Source of the DNA: Absidia repens
Lineage: Eukaryota; Mucoromycota; Mucoromycetes; Mucorales; Cunninghamellaceae
DNA: 64,000 nt
Assembly: GCA_002105175.1 (NCBI GenBank)
Contig: MCGE01000025.1
Coordinates: 186,001-250,000, forward strand
Reading direction: 5' to 3'
Position numbers and translations under genes: made by a program. This document shows positions 563 to 46,610 of this stretch, in pieces. Each line of letters starts with the position of its first letter. The stretch's first letter is position 1. The notes under the pieces were generated by a model. It did not search any database, was not told the DNA's origin, and saw only the letters and a program-made list of their open reading frames with translations.

Positions 563-1213
563 TCAGATTCCGCACAAGTGAACCTTTATTTATTTTCTCC
601 CAATTTTTATTTTTTCGTCTCTCTTTCTTTCCCTCCCCCTTTCTTTTTTCTTCACCATTCAGGTTCTTTGATGTTTAAGTGGACATAGAATACTGTCAGG
701 ACTAGTTTAGAAGGGGTTTAAGTTCAGGGATGACAAGATGCATGGGGAAACCCTTTCATTTTGGATTCAGGATTTGGGAACACCACTAGTTGACTTTTTG
801 GACCCTTCATTAGATTAGTTTAGTTTAGTCTTGGTTTGCCCATAGTTTATATCTACTTCTGAATAAAACATGCCTCTTTCTACATGCTTCAATGAAAAAT
901 GTCCCATTAGTCTCTCTCTCTCACACATGTCTTGTGCAAGAGATCACTATTTTCTTTTTACTACCATCGGCTCCCCCCTTTTGATTAGTGTTGACCACTG
1001 TTGCTATGCTTCAATATAAATTTATCCTTATAGCCATTTATATTCTTTGTACCGTATATTAGTTTGATTGTTTTTGTTTTGTTTTTTGCAATCGTTCCCT
1101 TAGATTAGTGCTGACCGTCCTCCAGATCTCCCGTTACCTCATGTAGCACCATTATATCCCTTCATTGTTGTTGACCTTCCTGGCTTCTATGTATGCTTCA
1201 ATAAAATACAACC

Positions 1214-6852: not shown

Positions 6853-7935
6853 ATGGTGTGGTTTTTTGGAAAAAAAGACAATGATAATAATGACGATCAA
6901 GAAAGATTGAATGGACATGATCAACAAGACAACCATGACCCCTCCCAATCGCCCTATGCGCCCAAGGAACAGGATGAAGAACTTCCTATGGATTTGGGCT
7001 CACTTCAAGATATATTTAGTTTTAGTTTTATCCGTGGTAGGCCCATTACCAACTTTTTACTGGCTATTCTCTGGAGTATTGGACTTCCTATATTATTGTA
7101 TCACATTCTACTTCCTCATTTGGGTCAAGTCCTAGCGATGATTATCGCGTCTTCTCCTCCTTTAGCTATTGTAGTCTTGTAAGTTTTGTTATGTATATAA
7201 ACCTCCTTCCCCTTTCTTACTTTTTTTTTATTGTAGGCGTATCTTCAAGGAAAAGGCGGTGGATATTTTAGGAATAGTTGCTGGTCTTAGCTTTTTGATA
7301 TCTGGTATTATTGTAAGCATCATACCTGCTCCTTTTTTACGCTGGTAACACTTACTGATTTTTCTTATTTCTAGTCCATTGCTGAACCTGAGGAAAAAAC
7401 AAGTGCCATTTGTGAATCCATCGTCCCGCTGTTGGTTGGCGTCTTTTGTTTGGCTTCATTAATCCCTATCCGTATTGGCAACTTCGAATCAAGACCGCTT
7501 ATTTTTCAGGTAGCCAATCAAGTCATGCCTCGACAAGAAGAAGATGAAAACCTGAATGCGTATGATCATCGGCGCCGACAGCAGCAACAGCAGCCTTCTA
7601 CAAAGCGACAAAAACTGGATTATCTTTATACACACATGTCCCGGTTCCGTCAAGATATGCGTGTCATGACCGCTTGTTGGGGGATCACTTTGGTAGTAAC
7701 ATTTATCGTCAAGGTGATTGTGGTACTCACGAATGTTGACACCGGTTACGCTGAAACTGTTGGGTATATTGTATTTGGTCTTGCCACTGGGCTCATGATT
7801 ATGTTTACTTGGTTTTATACAAAGGTAGTCAAGAGGCATGTGACGGACTCTACCAAGGAAGGACTCCATAATGCTACTTGGGGCGTACAAACGATGGGGA
7901 ATACGTTTGGACAGGTGGTAAGCGGTGGTGGCTAG
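6853..7935 (+). CDS. VC0807-like multi-pass membrane protein
   Basis: Three exons (6853-7178, 7237-7312, 7375-7935) give 320 aa. The start is the ATG in CAACAATGG; the frame also opens upstream at a GTG, which I discount. After an acidic, hydrophilic N-terminus of about 65 aa there are about six membrane segments, including SIGLPILLYHILLPHLG, VDILGIVAGLSFLISGIIV and AETVGYIVFGLATGLMIMF. Segment order and the conserved RPLIFQVANQ and ACWGIT motifs resemble the VC0807 family, mostly bacterial membrane proteins of undefined function. A soluble Gln-rich loop separates the two halves. Function is unknown; membrane location is the only firm statement. Confidence 0.75.
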
Positions 7936-8278
7936 TGCATAGTTTAGTTTATACCCCCCTGGCTTTTTTTTTTCTTCTACCTGTATATGTATATTTCATT
8001 CATTCAAGCATTATTTTGGTTTGAACTCAGATTATCTCTTTTTTTATGATTTTTCTTTTTTTCTTTTCTTTTTTCACTTTTGACCACCATTCTTTCTAGG
8101 ACAATGTGGATAATTAGATTAGAAATTGTGTGCCTATTAGTTTAGCAAATCAGATTATCATTTTTATTCATTAAAAATTATTTTTACATACACATTTTCT
8201 GTCAATATATTGAATCACCGCACGCGTTCCCTTTTTTTATCTCATACAACTTCGTACATTTTTTTCTCTTCACTCACT
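7936..8278. other. spacer and eS6 promoter
   Basis: Intergenic AT-rich DNA between the membrane protein and the eS6 gene. A pyrimidine-rich stretch directly precedes the ATG at 8279. Nothing else was recognised. Confidence 0.5.
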
Positions 8279-9396
8279 ATGAAAGTAAGGAAAACGAAAA
8301 ATAGAAAATGGGATGCGCAAATTTGACGATGGAGAATGCACCATGAAAGAAAAGATGTAAACGGAAAACACAACGATCTCGATGGATGGATGGATTCAAT
8401 AGAAATGTTAGATGGATGGATGGTCTTTTTTTTTTTTTTTTTTTTTTTTTGACTCAACACATTCCGACCTCCCCTCCCTTCGATTCTTCATCGTCATCTT
8501 ACGCTACCCTATCAAATCACACAATGACTCTTTTTATTCATTCCTCCTTTGTTTATTTGACAACTAGTTGAACATTGCCAATCCAGCTACTGGCTGCCAA
8601 AAATTGATCGAAATCGATGATGAACGTCGTCTGTAAGTGTGGGCTGACGAAATACATGCAGACATACAATGTTGGATTGAAAGAGAAGACTGATCTTTAC
8701 ATATATGTATATATCTATATATATATTCACACGCAAATATAGCCGCGGCTTCTACGATAAGCGTATGTCTCAAGAAGTATCTGGCGATGCTCTCGGTGAT
8801 GAATTCAAAGGTTACGTGTTCCGCATTTCTGGTGGTAACGACAAGCAAGGGTTCCCCATGAAGCAAGGTGTCTTGTTGCCTCACCGTGTGCGTTTGTTGT
8901 TGTCCAAGGGTCACAGCTGTTACCGTCCTCGTCGTACTGGTGAACGCAAGAGAAAGTCTGTCCGTGGCTGTATCGTGTCCTCTGACTTGTCTGTGCTCTC
9001 ATTGGTCGTGGTCAAGCAAGGTGAACAAGACATTCCTGGTTTGACTGACACTGCCGTCCCCAAGCGTCTCGGTCCCAAGCGTGCTTCCAAGATCCGGAAG
9101 TTCTTCAACCTGTCTCATGCCGATGATGTCCGCAAGTATGTGATTCGTCGTGAAATCCAACCCAAGAACGCCGAAAAGAAGCCCTACACCAAAGCCCCAA
9201 GATCCAACGTTTGGTCACCCCTGCTACTCTTCAACGCAAACGTCATCGTGTTGCCATCAAGCGCAGACGCGCCGAAGCCTCCAAGGAAGCCGAAGCCGAA
9301 TACAAACAATTGCTCGCCAAACGTGTCAAGGAAACCAAGGAAAAGAAATTGGAACGCCGTCGTACATCTTCCATGCAAAAGTCTGCTTCTGCTTAG
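8279..9396 (+). CDS. rps6: small-subunit ribosomal protein eS6 (one-base frame break)
   Basis: Exon 1 is only ATGAAA (8279-8284). Exon 2 is 8568-8632 and exon 3 is 8743-9396. The joined product follows eS6 from the N-terminus ([20 protein letters not shown]) to the basic C-terminal helix and the [13 protein letters not shown] tail, which carries the serines phosphorylated by S6 kinase in other eukaryotes. The frame breaks inside [15 protein letters not shown]: the run at 9195-9198 has four C where five are needed. Exon lengths sum to 725 nt, one short of a multiple of three, and one more C would give 241 codons. eS6 is essential and the rest is intact, so an assembly error is the likely cause. 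The codon use is strongly biased, as expected for a highly expressed gene. Confidence 0.93.
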
Positions 9397-10200
9397 AAAC
9401 ACAATTTTACACCTCCTGCCCTCTCTTCCTTCCCCCACCTCCCACTTTTCTTAGAATTTTGATAGTCATAGTTTTAGTAAGTGTAGTTACTAGGTATAGT
9501 TGTAATTATTATCCCCCCCCTTCCAACCCCCTTCCCAATCTACTTTTTGTCAATAACATATCCACTTCCATTTTTTATAATAAAGAAAATAATCTTCAAA
9601 AAAATATTCGTATCATATATATGTGTGTGTGCAGATCTTTTATTGTTTGCCATGCTTTATTGGTTTGTAATACAGAAAAGTACATCTGAAATCCCGATAC
9701 ATCCCACTATGATGAGACCCTTTATTTGCCTATTTTGCTAGTCTTGATCATTGATTATCTTTTCTCAAGGCCTAGTACCCATTCCCCGTTCTTCCCCGTA
9801 TAGCATGACCACCCCACCCTTTCCTTTTTATTTGTATCGGCGAGGCTAACGACAATCAAATAATCCACACATCCTCTCAAGATTTTTCTCCCTCTGTCAT
9901 CCATCTTGTCCTTTTCAAACATGCAGCCATTGCATATCTAGTAACAATTTTTATTGGGAAGGCCCTGAAGTTGTATAGTTCCTTATGTAATACTTAGTGT
10001 TGTGGAGCAACATATACAAGATCAAAAAACCAGACGCCTGCAAAAAACAAAAAACACGACCACCACTCCTCAATTCGAAAAACGCACCAAAATCAAAAAC
10101 GGTTAGAGAATCAGCATCATACAATAAAAATTGATAATTTTATTAAAAGTCAAATGATAAGAACAACATAAAACTAAATGCTAAATATAATCTAGACCAT
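9397..10200. other. convergent spacer
   Basis: Holds the 3' ends of eS6 (+) and eL30 (-). A likely poly(A) signal for eS6 (AATAAA) is at 9579-9584. A reverse-strand AATAAA-type signal for eL30 lies near 10137-10145. No further gene was seen in the roughly 550 bases between. Confidence 0.55.
9579..9584 (+). terminator. putative poly(A) signal of eS6
   Basis: Canonical AATAAA about 185 bases after the eS6 stop codon. Assigned by position only. Confidence 0.45.
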
Positions 10201-10773
10201 TTATTGGGCAGTCAAGATGTCAGAGTCACCAGCATCAGTGATGGAGAGGACACTGGTACGGAAAAGCTTACCACAAGCAGTACCGAGATCGATGTTGTCT
10301 ATTCAATAAAAAAATAAAAAATCAGTATCAATACACTCCCCAAAACATACCATAAAAAAAAGAAGAGAAAATTCAACTTACTGCCGTTGTAGTGGTGGAC
10401 ACCGGTCTTGGACAACATAGCGTAGTATTCGATTTCAGACTTGCGGAGGGGAGGGCAGTTACCAGCAATGATGACCAACTTGGCTAGAAGAGATCAAAGA
10501 AAAAGAGAAGCATAGATTAATAACACAAATTTGGGGGACGATCTCTGCCTGAGAGAAGTTCTTTTTTTTTTTTGTAGAAGAAATAGGCTCCTGTCCCCCC
10601 CAATAGATGAGGTAGTTTTTTTTGTAATTTTAAGACTTACACTTTCCAAGACGGAGAGACTTCAAGGTAGTCTTGTAACCAAGGGTGTATTTACCAGACT
10701 TGGTGACAAGTTGGAGACGAGAGTTGATGGATTCAGCGTTCTTCTTGGACTTCTTGTTGGTGATGGGAGCCAT
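10201..10773 (-). CDS. rpl30: large-subunit ribosomal protein eL30
   Basis: Three exons (10773-10641, 10483-10382, 10298-10201) give 110 aa. The product follows eL30 throughout: [40 protein letters not shown], and the C-terminal [14 protein letters not shown] and DAGDSDI. It is a component of the 60S subunit and a member of the L7Ae/L30e kink-turn-binding family. In budding yeast it represses splicing of its own transcript by binding a kink-turn. Here intron 1 contains a predicted kink-turn (see 10531-10603), which suggests a comparable control. It is convergent with eS6 and tandem with the Rad6-like gene. Confidence 0.95.
10531..10603 (-). promoter_or_regulatory. predicted kink-turn RNA element in eL30 intron 1
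   Basis: In the transcript orientation the arms are UUGGGGGGGAC (10603-10593) and GUCCCCCAA (10539-10531), giving the non-canonical-side stem. A second 4-bp stem, GCCU (10588-10585) with AGGC (10550-10547), encloses the loop and ends in a C-G pair. Between the stems the long strand reads AGA-GA-UC and the short strand AG-GA. This allows a three-nucleotide loop followed by tandem sheared G-A and A-G pairs, the kink-turn signature. Position 3 would be U-G and position 4 a C-A mismatch. The fold is drawn by eye; binding by eL30 is inference from its family and from the yeast precedent. Confidence 0.6.
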
Positions 10774-11231
10774 TGGTCAAGATTGAGTAATGAAAAATAA
10801 GGGAAGAGAGAAAAAGGGAAGGATGTAAAAAAAAATCTTTTTTTATTTCCACCCACAAAAAAATTTTCTGATCCAAGCCACTAGCTAGCTGCCCCTCTTT
10901 TTTTTTTTTTTGTGGTGAGGCGGAAATTCTGATCAAGCTAAAAAAGTTACAACTCCGTGCGTACGAAAAAAAAAAGCATAATATCTATGCATTCAACATG
11001 AAAAAAAAAATATAAATCAGATTTATTGTTTGAGGATAATAATGATAATAAGGAATCATAAAATAAAAAGAAATACTATTCAAATAAAAGAAGATGGGAA
11101 GGCTAGAAGGAATATGGTGTTTGAAAGCACGAGGGAGGGGGAATGGAAGCAATCAGCTAAATATAAACGATGATGATAATAAAATAATGATGATAATAAA
11201 AGACATATACAACAACAACACATACCCTGTT
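10774..11231. other. spacer between eL30 and the Rad6-like gene
   Basis: eL30 promoter and downstream flank of the E2 gene. It includes A/T homopolymers and GAT/AAT-rich simple sequence at about 11030-11205. No gene was recognised. Confidence 0.5.
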
Positions 11232-12068
11232 TCATTCCCATGAGGATTCTACAATCTCACGGACACGTCTGACATATTCCTTTCTGTTTTCACGATAAAG
11301 GTTGGCAGCTTCCGCATTAGCCGGTGAGTTTGGGTTGGGGTCGTGCAACAAGGATTGAATACTGGTAAGAATAGCCGCCACATCATATGTTGGACTCCAT
11401 CGGTTTTGTAAAATGTCGAGACACAGTTCACCATTGGCATAAACATTTGGATGGAACATCTTCGACACGAATTTCACAGAGGGCGGTTTGTTGGGCTATC
11501 ACACATGTCAAAAAAGGGTGTGTGCATGAATACCATGTATTCCATTTTCTTCAATCGCCACCACCACTTTCCTCCTCTCCTACCCACTACTTACATAAGT
11601 TTCATCAAACTGTAAAACAAGTTTAAAAGTACCATCTTCAAACGGAGTATCAGCTATGAATCAGAAGAATAAAACTTGGCTATCAGTTAACGGTAAAACT
11701 TCCCTCCCCTTCCTTCTCCAGGATGTTTTTCATTTCTGCTTACCAGGTCCAAATATCACGGCGTTCCACATCATAATATTGTCAGAGCAAGGCGCACCTT
11801 CAAAAGATAGAGAGACTCGGTTAGCTTATTTTACTCCCCCATTACAACAACGCTCTATTCTTTCCTATGTGTTTCCCTCTGTCTACATGTATTAACATAC
11901 CTGATACGCCACCTATAAAATAATAAAAAGTAAAAAAAGTTCAATACAATATGACCAACTCAATCATGTCCACTATGTACGCACCACTTCTTTGTCAGAC
12001 TTACCAGGAGGATCGCTCTGTAAACGCTTAAAGTCCCGCATAAGACGTCTTCTTGTAGGTGTTGACAT
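11232..12068 (-). CDS. rad6: ubiquitin-conjugating enzyme E2, Rad6/Ubc2 type
   Basis: Five exons (12068-12005, 11912-11901, 11797-11744, 11653-11595, 11495-11232) give 150 aa, the core Rad6 length. The N-terminus [16 protein letters not shown], the HPN motif ([13 protein letters not shown]) and the catalytic cysteine at residue 88 coincide with Rad6. The product ends shortly after the last helix and lacks the acidic tail of budding-yeast Rad6, as in fission yeast and animals. By family it loads ubiquitin for Rad18 (PCNA, post-replication repair), Bre1 (histone H2B) and the N-degron pathway. Exon 2 is a 12-nt micro-exon encoding most of GVSG; without it the frame is kept but four residues of the conserved PPGGVSGAP loop are lost. 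Confidence 0.95.
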
Positions 12069-13059
12069 GATGTATAAATATTGTGCAGTAGATTGAATAG
12101 AAAAGAAAAGATGAAAATATAACGATAACCAATAGATGAGAACCGCAGGTAATGTCGGCTTCTGGATGGGAAAAAGAGAGGAAAAAAAAAAACGAAGAGC
12201 GGATTTTCAAAAGCTTGGAGGCCATGCTTTGTCCGTTCAGTCACACGGCAAAATGACGCTCTATTTCATTCCCATCCAACCAGCCTCCCCCTTTTGTTTT
12301 TGGCGCCCATCCTCCCACAAAAAAAAAATCAGTGTTCATTTCTGCTCGAATTTTTTGCAAAGAGCACTGGACATTAAAAAGTTACACTAACATAGGACAA
12401 AAATCTTTTTGGCATGAAGAAAAAATCTGGCATCAAAAATTTTATAGCGTGGTTTGCGTCTCAGAAGTCGGTATGTCCATCGGTCGAAAACACAGTGTTT
12501 AAATGGCCACTTCCCCCCCCACCTCTCTCCGCCAGGTGATTGTTAAATTTGGGTCAAGATTCGAGATGCACTTCTCCCAAATTCGAAAAACCAAAAAAAA
12601 AAAAAAAAAAAAAAAAAAGATTTCGCCGGGTTTAAACATTCTCACATCCTCCCAAAAAAAAAGTCTACAGAGCGCAAAGTGACGTGTTGAGGTGCGTATT
12701 TGTGTGTGTGTGTGTGGGGGGGGGTTCTCTCTTCACCGTACCATTCACAATGGAAATAATGAGCTGGCTGGATATATAGATAGTATGTAAAATTTTCTAT
12801 GGCGGATGACGACTTTGTTCAACGGTCCTAAGACTCATTGATATACTGGCTCATGCAGGGATATATAGAACCGCATACATTTCATAGAAAAAAGAGCTTA
12901 CGGGCTGCCAGTTAAACGTTAACTGACTGACACTCTAGGGGAACGGAGAGTGGTATTGTCAAGCTGAAGCACAGATGTATGATAGGACACTCACAAAGCA
13001 GCTATAATAACGGCATTACCCACTAGTCCGTAGGTCAGAGAATGATTGGTAAAAAAAAA
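12069..13059. other. spacer upstream of the Rad6-like gene
   Basis: Contains the divergent promoter region, an A run near 12593-12618 and a short GT repeat followed by a G run near 12700-12724. No coding exon was recognised. Confidence 0.5.
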
Positions 13060-13690
13060 AAAAAGGGGCATGTTTTATTTACAGCAATATTGAACACTAA
13101 ACTAAAAGCGCGAGATTCATTGTAATTGGGAATCTATTGTGGACGAAGCATGAAAGGGACTATAAGGTGAGATTTATGGAATGGTCAACACTAATCTAAA
13201 GGGACAATGGTAAAATGGGAGTCAATATCATGTGCAAGGCATGATAATGACGGAGGAGACAATAGTCATTAAGCACAACACCACACGTCATCACTAATCA
13301 AAAAGGGGGAGAGGATGGTTGTAAAAATGTATTCTACTGCACAAGACATGAGAAACACTATTGGGACAGCGTTTTTTTACTGAAGCATGTAAAAAAGGAC
13401 ATAATTTATTCCGATATAGATACAAACTATGAACAAACTATACGAAGTCATCTAATGGTGTGCTTGATCCTAGATCCAAAATTAAAGGGTTTCCTCATGC
13501 ATGTTGTAATCGCTGCGCTGAAAAGCCCTCTAAACTAGACCTGACATTATTCTAAGTCCATCATAGCCCTATAGAAGTCGAATGGTGAAGAAAAAGAAGA
13601 AGAAGGACGAAAAGAAAATGGGACAGAGGCGGGAAAAAAAAATTGGCAGAAAATATATATTCACGTGGGCGGCGTTTGAAATGAGGGTCT
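13060..13690 (-). repeat. dispersed non-coding element, copy B
   Basis: Reverse-oriented copy. Read on the minus strand it opens with ATTTCAAACGCCGCCCACGT near 13678-13659, then a pyrimidine tract, the core GCATGAGGAAACCCTTTAAT near 13505-13480 and degenerate CTTCA(G/A)TAAAA units. No open frame of note. It sits in the divergent spacer between the Rad6-like gene and EXO70. Confidence 0.7.
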
Positions 13691-33881: not shown

Positions 33882-34570
33882 AATGCCGCCCACGTGAATA
33901 TTTATTTACACGATGTTTTTTCCGCTATCTCTTTCTTTCATTTCTTTTTTCTCTTTATTTTTTTCTTCTCCATTCAAACTTCTATGGGGCTAAGTTGGAC
34001 TTAGAATAGTACCAGGACTTGTTTAGAAGGGGTTTCAGCACAGGGATTAAAGATGCATGGGGAAACCCTTTCATTTTGAATTCAGGATTTGCAGTGACCG
34101 TTAGTTGGCTTTTTGGAGCCGCCAAAAGCTTAGCTTAGTATTAAAGTCTCATAGTTTGTATCAAAATCAATAAAAAATGTCGCTTATTTACATGCTTTAA
34201 TGAAAATTGTCCCAGAAGTCTTCTTCATGTCTTGTACAATAGAACCCTTTTTTACTACCATCACCCTTTTTGATTCGTGTTAGACCGTTGTTGTGCTTCA
34301 ATAAGAAGTGTCCTACCATTCTTTATTATGTCTTGTGCAGTGTATTATATACCTCTTTGCAATTATGCTTTTAGATTAGAGTCAACCATTTTCTGAACTT
34401 CCATTAGTCTACCTTTTAGTATCCCATATACTACCTCCATTAGATCCTTCCATTAGATCTCTAGTGGTAATGAGCCTCTCATCTTTAGTTTAGCACCTAT
34501 CAGTATACTTTAATAAAATATTACTTTTTATTCGTTAACCATTCTATGACACATATGATGGTGAAAAATG
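33882..34570 (+). repeat. dispersed non-coding element, copy C
   Basis: Opens with TTTAAAATGCCGCCCACGTG (about 33877-33896), then TATTTATTTAC and a pyrimidine tract. The core GCATGGGGAAACCCTTTCAT is at about 34052. CTTTAATGAAAA, CTTCAATAAGAA and CTTTAATAAAAT units lie near 34195, 34296 and 34508. No coding capacity. Confidence 0.75.
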
Positions 34571-35157
34571 TCGTTATTGTTCATCTTTTGTGAGCGCCTT
34601 ATCGAGTACCTGCTTTCTAGTTCCCCAGTCTTGTCCAGTTTTGCTCATCCCCTTGCCCTCTCAAAAACCATATCTGGTAGCAAATGTTAAAATGACTAAA
34701 TCCCGTATAATCTTTTATTTTTTTGAATCTGGGAGTGTAAGATGAGAATGTCTTGAGCCTTGTCTACAACTTCCTACCGTCCTGTGCCTTGTCCCCCGCC
34801 CCACGCCCCGCCTGATCCTATGCCGAGTCTCTCCAGATCTTTGATTTGATCCGCATTTGATCAATTATCAAGTTCAATCATTAACATTACGTACATCATT
34901 TTATCGCAACCATCATATAAACAAAAAAGAGAGACATTGTTGTATATTGATACCTGAGTATAATTGACAATAAGGAATAATATTTTTATTGATGTGATAA
35001 GGAAGGGGAGAGATAATAACATGGAGAAAATACAAATAAAATCAAATAAATGAATACTGATACTAATATCAACAGGATATAATCATTGATAATGTGTAGG
35101 TCCCTAATTTTATATACATGTAAAGGGGAAAGGGAAAAAAGATCCAATAAAAGAGCC
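34571..35157. other. spacer after repeat copy C
   Basis: No exon or RNA gene was recognised. A C-rich patch is near 34790-34812. The 3' end of the Dam1-like gene lies just beyond. Confidence 0.45.
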
Positions 35158-37379: not shown

Positions 37380-38115
37380 TTAGGCAAGACACTCATAAAA
37401 TAGCAACAATAGCAGCATAGATTATCATGCGACGGGTCAGAGGAGGGCTAGTAAAAAGGCGTATTTTATTGAAGCATATTGGCAGATACTACACTATAGA
37501 AAACGGGGTTTATTTTAAGAATGTAATTTTATGGAGGGATCTATTGAAGGAATCATGAGGGGACTAATGTGAGTCCTAAATAATGGTCAACACTAGTATA
37601 AAGGACAATTATCAAACGTGATCTAGTATACAGTATAAGGCACGAGGAAGGCAACAAAGAGATACATTTTATTAAAGCATACCACCAACATCACTATCTA
37701 CATTGGACGATGCAAGGAGGGATCCATTGCACAAGACAAGAGAGAGACTAATGGGACATACTCCATTAAAATATCTAAAAGAGAAAAAATTTATCAAGTG
37801 GTAGGTACAAACTATGACTAAACTAAGACTAAGACTAATGTAAGCGAATGAGGGCTTTAAAAGGCCAATAATGGAATAATGGCGGTTCTAAATCCTGATT
37901 CCGAAATGAAAGAGTTTCCCCATGCATCTTGTCTACCTGTTCTGAAATTCCTTCAAAGCTAGTCCTGACACTATTTTAAGCCCAACATAACCTCAAAGAA
38001 GTTATAATGACAAAGGAAAAAAGGAATGAAAAAAAAAAAAAAATTGAAAAGGAAGAGAGTGAAAAGACAAAAATGGGGGAAACTAAAAATCCACGTGGGC
38101 GGAAGTTGAAATGTT
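37380..38115 (-). repeat. dispersed non-coding element, copy D
   Basis: Read on the minus strand it begins ATTTCAACTTCCGCCCACGT (about 38111-38092), with a pyrimidine tract, the core GCATGGGGAAACTCTTTCAT and repeated GCTTCAATAAAA or GCTTTAATAAAA units near 37475, 37675 and 37765 (some degenerate). No open frame of note. Confidence 0.75.
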
Positions 38116-40789: not shown

Positions 40790-41455
40790 CAGAGGATTGT
40801 TTTAAGAGGCATATTTTATTGAAGCATATTGCTAGAGACTAATACTAAAGACAAGGGTTCACTGCAACAAAGGGAGCATTGGAAGTGGCGTAAGGGAGAG
40901 TAATGATAGCTCCGAAAAATGGCCAATACTAAGCCGATCTGGTAATTGTAAAGAGGAACTTAGTGTAAAGTACTGTTTAATATATGCCTTTGGGATAGCC
41001 CAAGGGTATCTTTTTAATTGAAGCATGACGGTAGATCTACAGGGAGTGATGGCGAAACGGAATTTTTTTTGTCCGTATCGTACAAAACATCAAAGACCCT
41101 AATGGAACGGTTTTCATTAAAGCAAGTAAAAATAAGCACGTTTTATTCAGATATAGACACATACTACGGACAAACTATCACTAAACTAAGCTGATGGTGG
41201 CTCCAAAAAGTCGACTAATGGGGGGGGGGTCCTAAATCCTGAATCTAAAATGAAAGGGTTTCCCCATGTATCTTGTAATCCCTTAACTGAAACCCCTTCT
41301 AAACTAGTCCTAATACTATTCTAAAGTCAACATAGCTCCATAGAAGTTGAATGGTGAAAAAATAAGGAAAGAAAAAAAATGGGAAAAGAGAGACAAGAAA
41401 ATAACAAAGTGCACCAAAATAAAATAATCATGCGCGGCGTTTGAAATTTTTCTTT
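40790..41455 (-). repeat. dispersed non-coding element, copy E
   Basis: Minus-strand copy starting ATTTCAAACGCCGCGCATGA (about 41445-41426), with the core ACATGGGGAAACCCTTTCAT near 41271-41250 and GCTTTAATGAAAA, GCTTCAATTAAAA and GCTTCAATAAAA units near 41125, 41020 and 40820. No coding capacity. Confidence 0.75.
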
Positions 41456-45869: not shown

Positions 45870-46610
45870 AATTTAAATCCCGACCACGTGAATTTTAGTT
45901 TCCCATCTTTGTTTTTTTTGGCGCTCTTTCTTTTCAATTTCTTTCATTGATTTTTTTCAATTGTGGCGCCTATGGTGTTATGATGGATGTAGATTAGTGT
46001 TAGAGCTAGTTTAAAAAGGTGTTTCAGCTCAGGGATTACAACATACATGGGAAACGCTTTCATTTTGGATTCAGAATTTAGGACAACCGACAGTTAACGT
46101 TTTGGGGTCTCCATTAGCTTAACTTAGTGTCAGTTTATCCATAGTTTGAATCTATATTTGAATAAACATGTTTTTTTTTTTTTTTTTACTTGCTTCAATG
46201 AAAAATGTTCCCATTAATCTTTCTCATGTCTTGTGCAATAGATCTTTTTTTGTTTGACTACCATCAAAATCCTTTGATTACTGTTGAATGTTGTTGGGTT
46301 TCAATAACAGATATATCCCTTTAGTCTTTCACATGTCGTGTACTCTATACTTATAGTCATTCGCCTACTTTATGATTGTACCTTTAGATTAGTGTTGACC
46401 ATTCTTCAAATCTCACATATTAGTCCACTCATGCTTTCTCCAATAGATCCTCCCTTTATACAATAAACCCTTCGTATTTAGTTTTTGTGTCTACCAATAT
46501 GTTTCAATAAAGTATGTCTTTTTTTATAAACAATGTTATGACCCATCGGATAGTCAACAATGTTGCTATGATAACTGTTCTGATAGTGTCTTTACTCAAC
46601 ACTTGTTCTC
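45870..46610 (+). repeat. dispersed non-coding element, copy G
   Basis: Opens TTTAAATCCCGACCACGTGA (about 45869-45888), then a pyrimidine tract and the core ACATGGGAAACGCTTTCATT near 46044. GCTTCAATGAAAA, GTTTCAATAACA and GTTTCAATAAAG units lie near 46193, 46298 and 46503. No coding capacity. Confidence 0.75.

Follow-up and report, generated by a model that had tools for sequence, protein, structure and literature searches.

A candidate eL30-binding kink-turn within the first intron of the Absidia repens eL30 gene

Known L30 feedback systems and the eL30 locus of Absidia repens

In yeast, splicing of the L30 transcript is inhibited by the L30 protein itself (PMC7732827; PMC6298567), and a title cited within PMC7732827 has yeast L30 repressing the recruitment of the U2 small nuclear ribonucleoprotein. 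Here we describe a 73-nt hairpin inside intron 1 of the eL30 gene of Absidia repens (10531..10603, minus strand), delimited by sequence, folding, a kink-turn scan and its identity with a second gene copy. It lies in a 64-kb window, by which we mean the whole stretch of DNA that was analyzed (contig MCGE01000025.1, positions 186,001 to 250,000). We consider it likely that the hairpin is a kink-turn through which eL30 binds its own pre-mRNA in negative feedback, that is, a wholly intronic form of the known L30 autoregulation.

The element, a candidate kink-turn, resembles the kink-turn of the Saccharomyces cerevisiae RPL30 gene (older name RPL32) in lying close to the first splice junction of an L30 transcript. 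The two differ in that the yeast kink-turn combines exonic with intronic sequence and includes a splice site, and in that the spliced yeast mRNA forms a closely similar structure that inhibits translation (PMC5640933, PMC6298567), whereas the element described here is intronic throughout and is lost from the mature message by splicing. The original prediction had set its location apart from that in yeast, and the whole element does fall within the intron.

A second described system is the fungal “rpl30 motif” of Li and Breaker (2017), a hairpin of L30 genes with a conserved purine-rich internal loop, known from 47 examples in 26 species, lying mostly in 5′ untranslated regions (UTRs) and preceded by a long region with little sign of structure (PMC5640933). 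The Absidia element, too, is a hairpin associated with an L30 gene and has a purine-rich internal loop, a likeness at the level of the motif's general description, and it differs in being intronic where most examples are in 5′ UTRs. The main text of PMC5640933 contained no occurrence of mucor, zygomyc or rhizopus. The published motif lowers the novelty of the element, and some of its examples may be intronic too.

The third system comprises the leaders of archaeal l7ae transcripts, where a kink-turn in the protein's own transcript is bound by the family protein, giving negative feedback (PMC6298567; see also PMC5539422). These leaders share with the proposed Absidia system the pairing of a family protein with a kink-turn of its own transcript, and both terminal-loop layouts occur among them; they differ in controlling translation near the ribosome-binding site (PMC6298567). 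Among the titles and abstract openings listed in the literature search, no L30 kink-turn in a Mucoromycota intron was found, which suggests, as far as that search shows, that the wholly intronic position and the occurrence in Mucoromycota are new.

The coding part of the eL30 gene (10201..10773, minus strand) was delimited by exon matches and protein matches and encodes a product of 110 aa. Exon 1 (10773-10641, 133 nt) is followed by intron 1 (10640-10484, 157 nt), exon 2 (10483-10382, 102 nt), intron 2 (10381-10299, 83 nt) and exon 3 (10298-10201, 98 nt including the stop). A search of the Protein Data Bank (PDB) with the protein returned 84 distinct sequences at E <= 0.001, the top one, at E 5.1e-51, being an eL30. 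Of 4,377 protein matches, 120 were listed, and the named relatives of highest identity in this listing included Phycomyces (88%), Zychaea, Fennellomyces and Umbelopsis (86%) and Dichotomocladium (85%), all of them Mucoromycota. The protein contains KLFR, and its F91 occupies the position of yeast F85 and rat Y89, a placement based on the equally long ranges over which the two proteins match (11-109 here, 5-103 of 1t0k_B). Yeast F85 and rat Y89 are the aromatic RNA contact of L30, in yeast the main contact (PMC3706390), and by this placement the contacting residue appears to be retained in the Absidia protein.

Architecture and specificity of the intron 1 hairpin

In transcript order the hairpin runs GGGGGAC - AG - GA - GCCU - 34-nt loop - AGGC - AGA - GA - UC - GUCCCCC, with the letters and the minus-strand position that were originally described for it. 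All of its parts lie on the minus strand. By pairing, the 5′ strand of the outer (non-canonical, NC) stem, GGGGGAC, is at 10593..10599, and after AG (10592-10591) and the GA of the non-bulged strand (10589..10590, from the kink-turn scan) comes the 5′ strand of the inner (canonical, C) stem, GCCU (10585..10588). The 34-nt loop (10551..10584) holds an A-rich run, in which a single two-base gap is the only difference between the two gene copies over the loop. The 3′ strand of the inner stem, AGGC (10547..10550), leads into the bulged strand recognized by the scan (10540..10546), made up of the AGA bulge (10546-10544), GA (10543-10542) and UC (10541-10540), and the 3′ strand of the outer stem, GUCCCCC (10533..10539), closes the structure. 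The inner stem has four pairs and the outer stem seven contiguous ones. Of the two stems first proposed, GCCU/AGGC therefore stands as drawn, whereas the longer outer stem UUGGGGGGGAC/GUCCCCCAA does not, as it needs two bulged G's (7 G against 5 C); only with these two bulged could the seven-pair stem be extended by UU/AA.

The internal loop sets 5′-AGGA against 5′-AGAGAUC, which gives the architecture of a kink-turn, a three-base bulge and tandem G.A/A.G pairs between two stems. With b for the bulged strand, n for the other strand and the inner stem taken as the canonical one, the register is C:G at -1b:-1n, the AGA bulge, G.A and A.G, and then, going outward, U.G at 3b:3n, a C.A mismatch at 4b:4n and the seven-pair stem. 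The asymmetric loop, the tandem pairs and the C-G end of the canonical stem had all been anticipated, and they are borne out in both the sequence and the scan. The yeast L30 RNA (PDB 1T0K) probably has the core CAGAGAU/GGAG, which would be the same as the one found here (AGA bulge, tandem G.A, U.G and C:G). Two sequence features have been described that determine whether kink-turns fold in metal ions, C:G at -1b:-1n and either 3b = C or 3n = G (PMC6298567). Both are present in the Absidia hairpin, as the C:G closing pair and 3n = G, whereas among the archaeal l7ae leaders 3b = C or 3n = G is found in one of six and C:G at -1 in none (PMC6298567).

The outer stem begins at intron position 42. 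Downstream of it, after a gap of 10 nt, is a putative branch-point-like motif, TATTAATC (TATTGACC in the second copy; 10515..10522, minus strand), which we assigned by its likeness to the branch-point consensus.

A kink-turn search had been suggested along with the original prediction, and in a scan of both strands of the window the element was the strongest match. The scan required a C:G closing pair, tolerated up to two unpaired positions next to the G.A pairs and used rules that were chosen after the element had been seen. It returned 13 matches with at least three inner and at least four outer pairs and three matches at >=4/>=5; at >=4/>=6 and at >=4/>=7 the eL30 intron 1 element was the sole match. 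Dinucleotide shuffles of the intron reached these four levels in 76, 12, 4 and 0 of 20,000 cases, respectively.

The wider search covered the genome, 47.4 Mb in 79 contigs, which carries eukaryotic rRNA. The pattern GACNGGAG-N4-60-CAGAGATNGTC, an L30-type core plus three outer pairs that was written post hoc from the element and the presumed yeast core, had two matches in the 47.4 Mb, both of them in eL30 introns, and its reversed control had none. The looser pattern GGAG-N4-60-CAGAGAT matched 349 + 351 times against 187 + 253 for its control, so the short core is uninformative by itself and only core plus stem is telling. A covariance model built from the two eL30 copies was run against 16 sources (115,396 bases), where no further match had an E below 0.23. 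The L30-type pattern was also seen in six viral stretches, which were taken as chance; a DNA search found no eL30 relative in the viral contigs.

Conservation between the two eL30 copies

Contig C34 carries the only other eL30 gene that a protein search of the genome identified. The two copies belong to a duplicated block, with blastn pieces of four genes (by our assignment) at window 6981-12069 collinear on C34. All 71 aligned bases of the hairpin are identical between the copies, the alignment having two two-base gaps, one by the G-run and the other within the loop's A-rich run. The remainder of intron 1 is diverged (25/32 before the element and 41/47 after it), as is intron 2 (55/81). The chance of 71/71 is about 1e-12 at the rate of intron 2 and about 3e-6 at that of the flanks (66/79).

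The longest identical run between the copies in eL30 intron 1 is 42 bases. By comparison, introns 1 and 2 of a SNU13-like gene, introns 1 and 2 of an NHP2-like gene and introns 2 and 3 of an eS12-like gene had identities of 48-56% and longest runs of 6-11, and the four introns of a syntenic ubiquitin-conjugating-enzyme-like neighbor in the same duplicated block had 42-60% and 6-10. These controls, 10 introns in all, come from four further duplicated genes, whose names were read from the sequence and not from database annotation, and they leave out eS12-like intron 1, which was extracted from one copy, and the four best-matched eL8-like loci, which account for four of the genome's 15 exon matches to the Pfam model of the L7Ae family. 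Given the 71/71 identity against diverged flanks, intron 2 and control introns, the comparison indicates that the conserved intron 1 element is under selection. The two copies are also identical in the 12 bases directly 3′ of the hairpin (ATTTGTGTTATT, 10519-10530, minus strand), so conservation continues beyond the hairpin and reaches into the branch-point-like motif.

The linking of a kink-turn to eL30 at this locus, the core of the original prediction, has thereby gained support from the conservation between copies relative to control introns, from a core-plus-stem pattern confined to the two eL30 introns, from the presence of both folding determinants and from the retained aromatic residue at F91.

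A proposed feedback on splicing and its alternatives

Under the proposed feedback, surplus eL30 outside ribosomes would bind the hairpin, and its binding would lock the kink-turn together with the short inner stem. The resulting protein-RNA block would separate the 5′ splice site from the branch-point-like site and would hinder splicing, most likely at the recruitment of the branch-point machinery. Intron 1 would then be retained, yielding a message with an early stop and less eL30, and the retained transcript would be expected to decay. The 5′ splice site GTAAGT and the first in-frame stop on retention (TAA, 10632-10630) are both contained in 10630..10640 (minus strand), and the frame of a retained intron ends after 47 aa in this copy and after 83 aa in the second. 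A coding role for the conserved block was rejected, because the retained frame ends early (in this copy three codons beyond the last whole codon of exon 1) and the copies have A-rich runs that are two bases apart in length.

Several observations weigh against this reading, the first of which concern folding. ViennaRNA, a type of program that scores neither kink-turns nor bound protein, gave minimum energies of -19.6 kcal/mol in both copies, compared with -16.7 (this copy) and -16.1 (second copy) kcal/mol for the forced kink-turn pairing. The predicted minimum fold is without the inner stem, whose pair probability in the absence of protein is about 0.04 in this copy and 0.006 in the second, and the competing fold is favored by about 3 kcal/mol in both. 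Folding energy was not unusual either for the 157-nt intron stretch (z = 0.73; 154 of 200 shuffles folded equally well or better) or for the element (z = -1.14; 32 of 200). The C.A at 4b:4n beside U.G departs from the kink-turn ideal, and the yeast L30 RNA presumably has G-C at this position. Helix 58 of the rRNA holds a further eL30 site. In the stretch presumed to be this helix, one ribosomal DNA (rDNA) copy (L028) has CCTAAGAGATAGG facing CTATCGAAAGG and shares AGAGAU, but with a different pairing register; the kink-turn scan did not single out this rDNA stretch, and no clear match to the helix 58 site was obtained. All 11 pairs are invariant in this comparison of two copies from one genome, which means that it yields no covariation. 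Moreover, the loop and the bases beside the stem are conserved as well, such that selection may cover more than the kink-turn, and the conserved block may have an additional or other role.

The strands of the competing fold are conserved between the copies too. We infer that the competing fold, although it counts against a free-standing kink-turn, fits a protein-driven switch, given that the fold lacking the inner stem is favored by about 3 kcal/mol and that its strands are conserved.

The alternative that survives best, though we regard it as unlikely, is that the hairpin is a structured splicing aid selected without any binding of eL30, either as a stem that brings the 5′ splice site nearer to the branch point or as a pair of mutually exclusive folds that determine how efficiently the intron is spliced. 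GGGGGAC/GUCCCCC is strongly predicted to pair (probability 0.87-0.97 in both copies) and is located downstream of the 5′ splice site and ahead of the branch-point-like site, the loop and the alternative pairings are conserved together with it, and yeast RPL7B offers a precedent in a zipper stem with an exclusive alternative structure (PMC12311795). However, a plain stem has no need of the AGA bulge and the tandem GA, the intron to be shortened is only 157 nt, and the coincidence with a gene of the kink-turn-binding family would be left unexplained.

Recent gene conversion, rather than selection on the element, would account for the identity of the copies only with low probability. The exons of the eL30 pair are also very similar (132/133, 99/102 and 96/98), which is a further point against the reading that we prefer, and there may have been some gene conversion in the pair, judging from these identities. 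The diverged flanks and intron 2 stand against it as the cause, and a single tract over exon 1, the element and exon 2 is improbable because conversion would have levelled those flanks.

Ribosomal-protein introns often host small nucleolar RNAs (snoRNAs), and those of the box C/D class include a kink-turn, which would favor a snoRNA or other small RNA encoded in the intron as the source of the conserved block. We think this improbable to a similar degree: by eye the block is without box C (RUGAUGA), box D (CUGA) or H/ACA boxes, and its arrangement, in which the bulged strand is the 3′ one and the canonical stem is the inner one, is the reverse of the box C/D layout. An Rfam scan of 1,201 bases around the element likewise found no family at the gathering score, the best hit (E 0.38) being to a microRNA family and outside the element.

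Cross-regulation through another L7Ae-family protein (Snu13, Nhp2, eL8 or eS12), instead of self-regulation by eL30, would be surprising, for although proteins of this family bind kink-turns selectively (PMC6298567) and the genome has 15 exon matches to the Pfam model of the family, the element sits in the eL30 gene itself, its core is probably of the L30 type and the yeast precedent is for L30 (PMC5640933, PMC7732827, PMC6298567).

Three further observations were made in the genome and the window. The 3′ UTRs of two SNU13-like genes, members of the kink-turn-binding family, share an identical 35-nt block (L029:834-868, minus strand, contig C8; L030:1638-1672, plus strand, contig C23) that contains AATGATCG and CTGAG, while their introns are diverged and the remaining 3′ UTR is only partly similar. 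The kink-turn scan found no kink-turn in this block, which may nevertheless be a regulatory element. Six matches to 5.8S rRNA, on contigs C38, C64 and C66 versus C35, C51 and C75, scored 137.5 (three matches), 132.1, 123.5 and 121.2 bits, and these four score classes imply that the genome holds divergent rDNA copies. Lastly, six places in the window (640-918, 13437-13603, 33951-34581, 37790-38026, 41111-41370 and 45977-46568) match one stretch of contig C34 (about 270040-270690) at 66-80% identity, pointing to a dispersed repeat across the window.

Returning to the eL30 feedback, the intron 1 element probably works like the yeast L30 kink-turn and the fungal rpl30 motif, on the comparisons made above. 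More tentatively, and with somewhat less than even confidence, we suggest that feedback through an L30 kink-turn either dates far back in fungi or had more than one origin, and that the Mucoromycota lineage retains the yeast core in a wholly intronic version, in which the twofold control of yeast, over splicing and translation, has become a splicing-only switch, possibly through eL30 selecting one of two conserved, mutually exclusive folds. The locus would offer a testable case of ribosomal-protein feedback via splicing beyond the yeasts, for which both the RNA element and the protein are identified and a second copy exists naturally. Its comparison with the splice-site overlap of yeast, the fungal 5′-UTR motif and the archaeal leaders may help to distinguish one protein-kink-turn contact that was relocated within the transcript from a circuit that was invented repeatedly.
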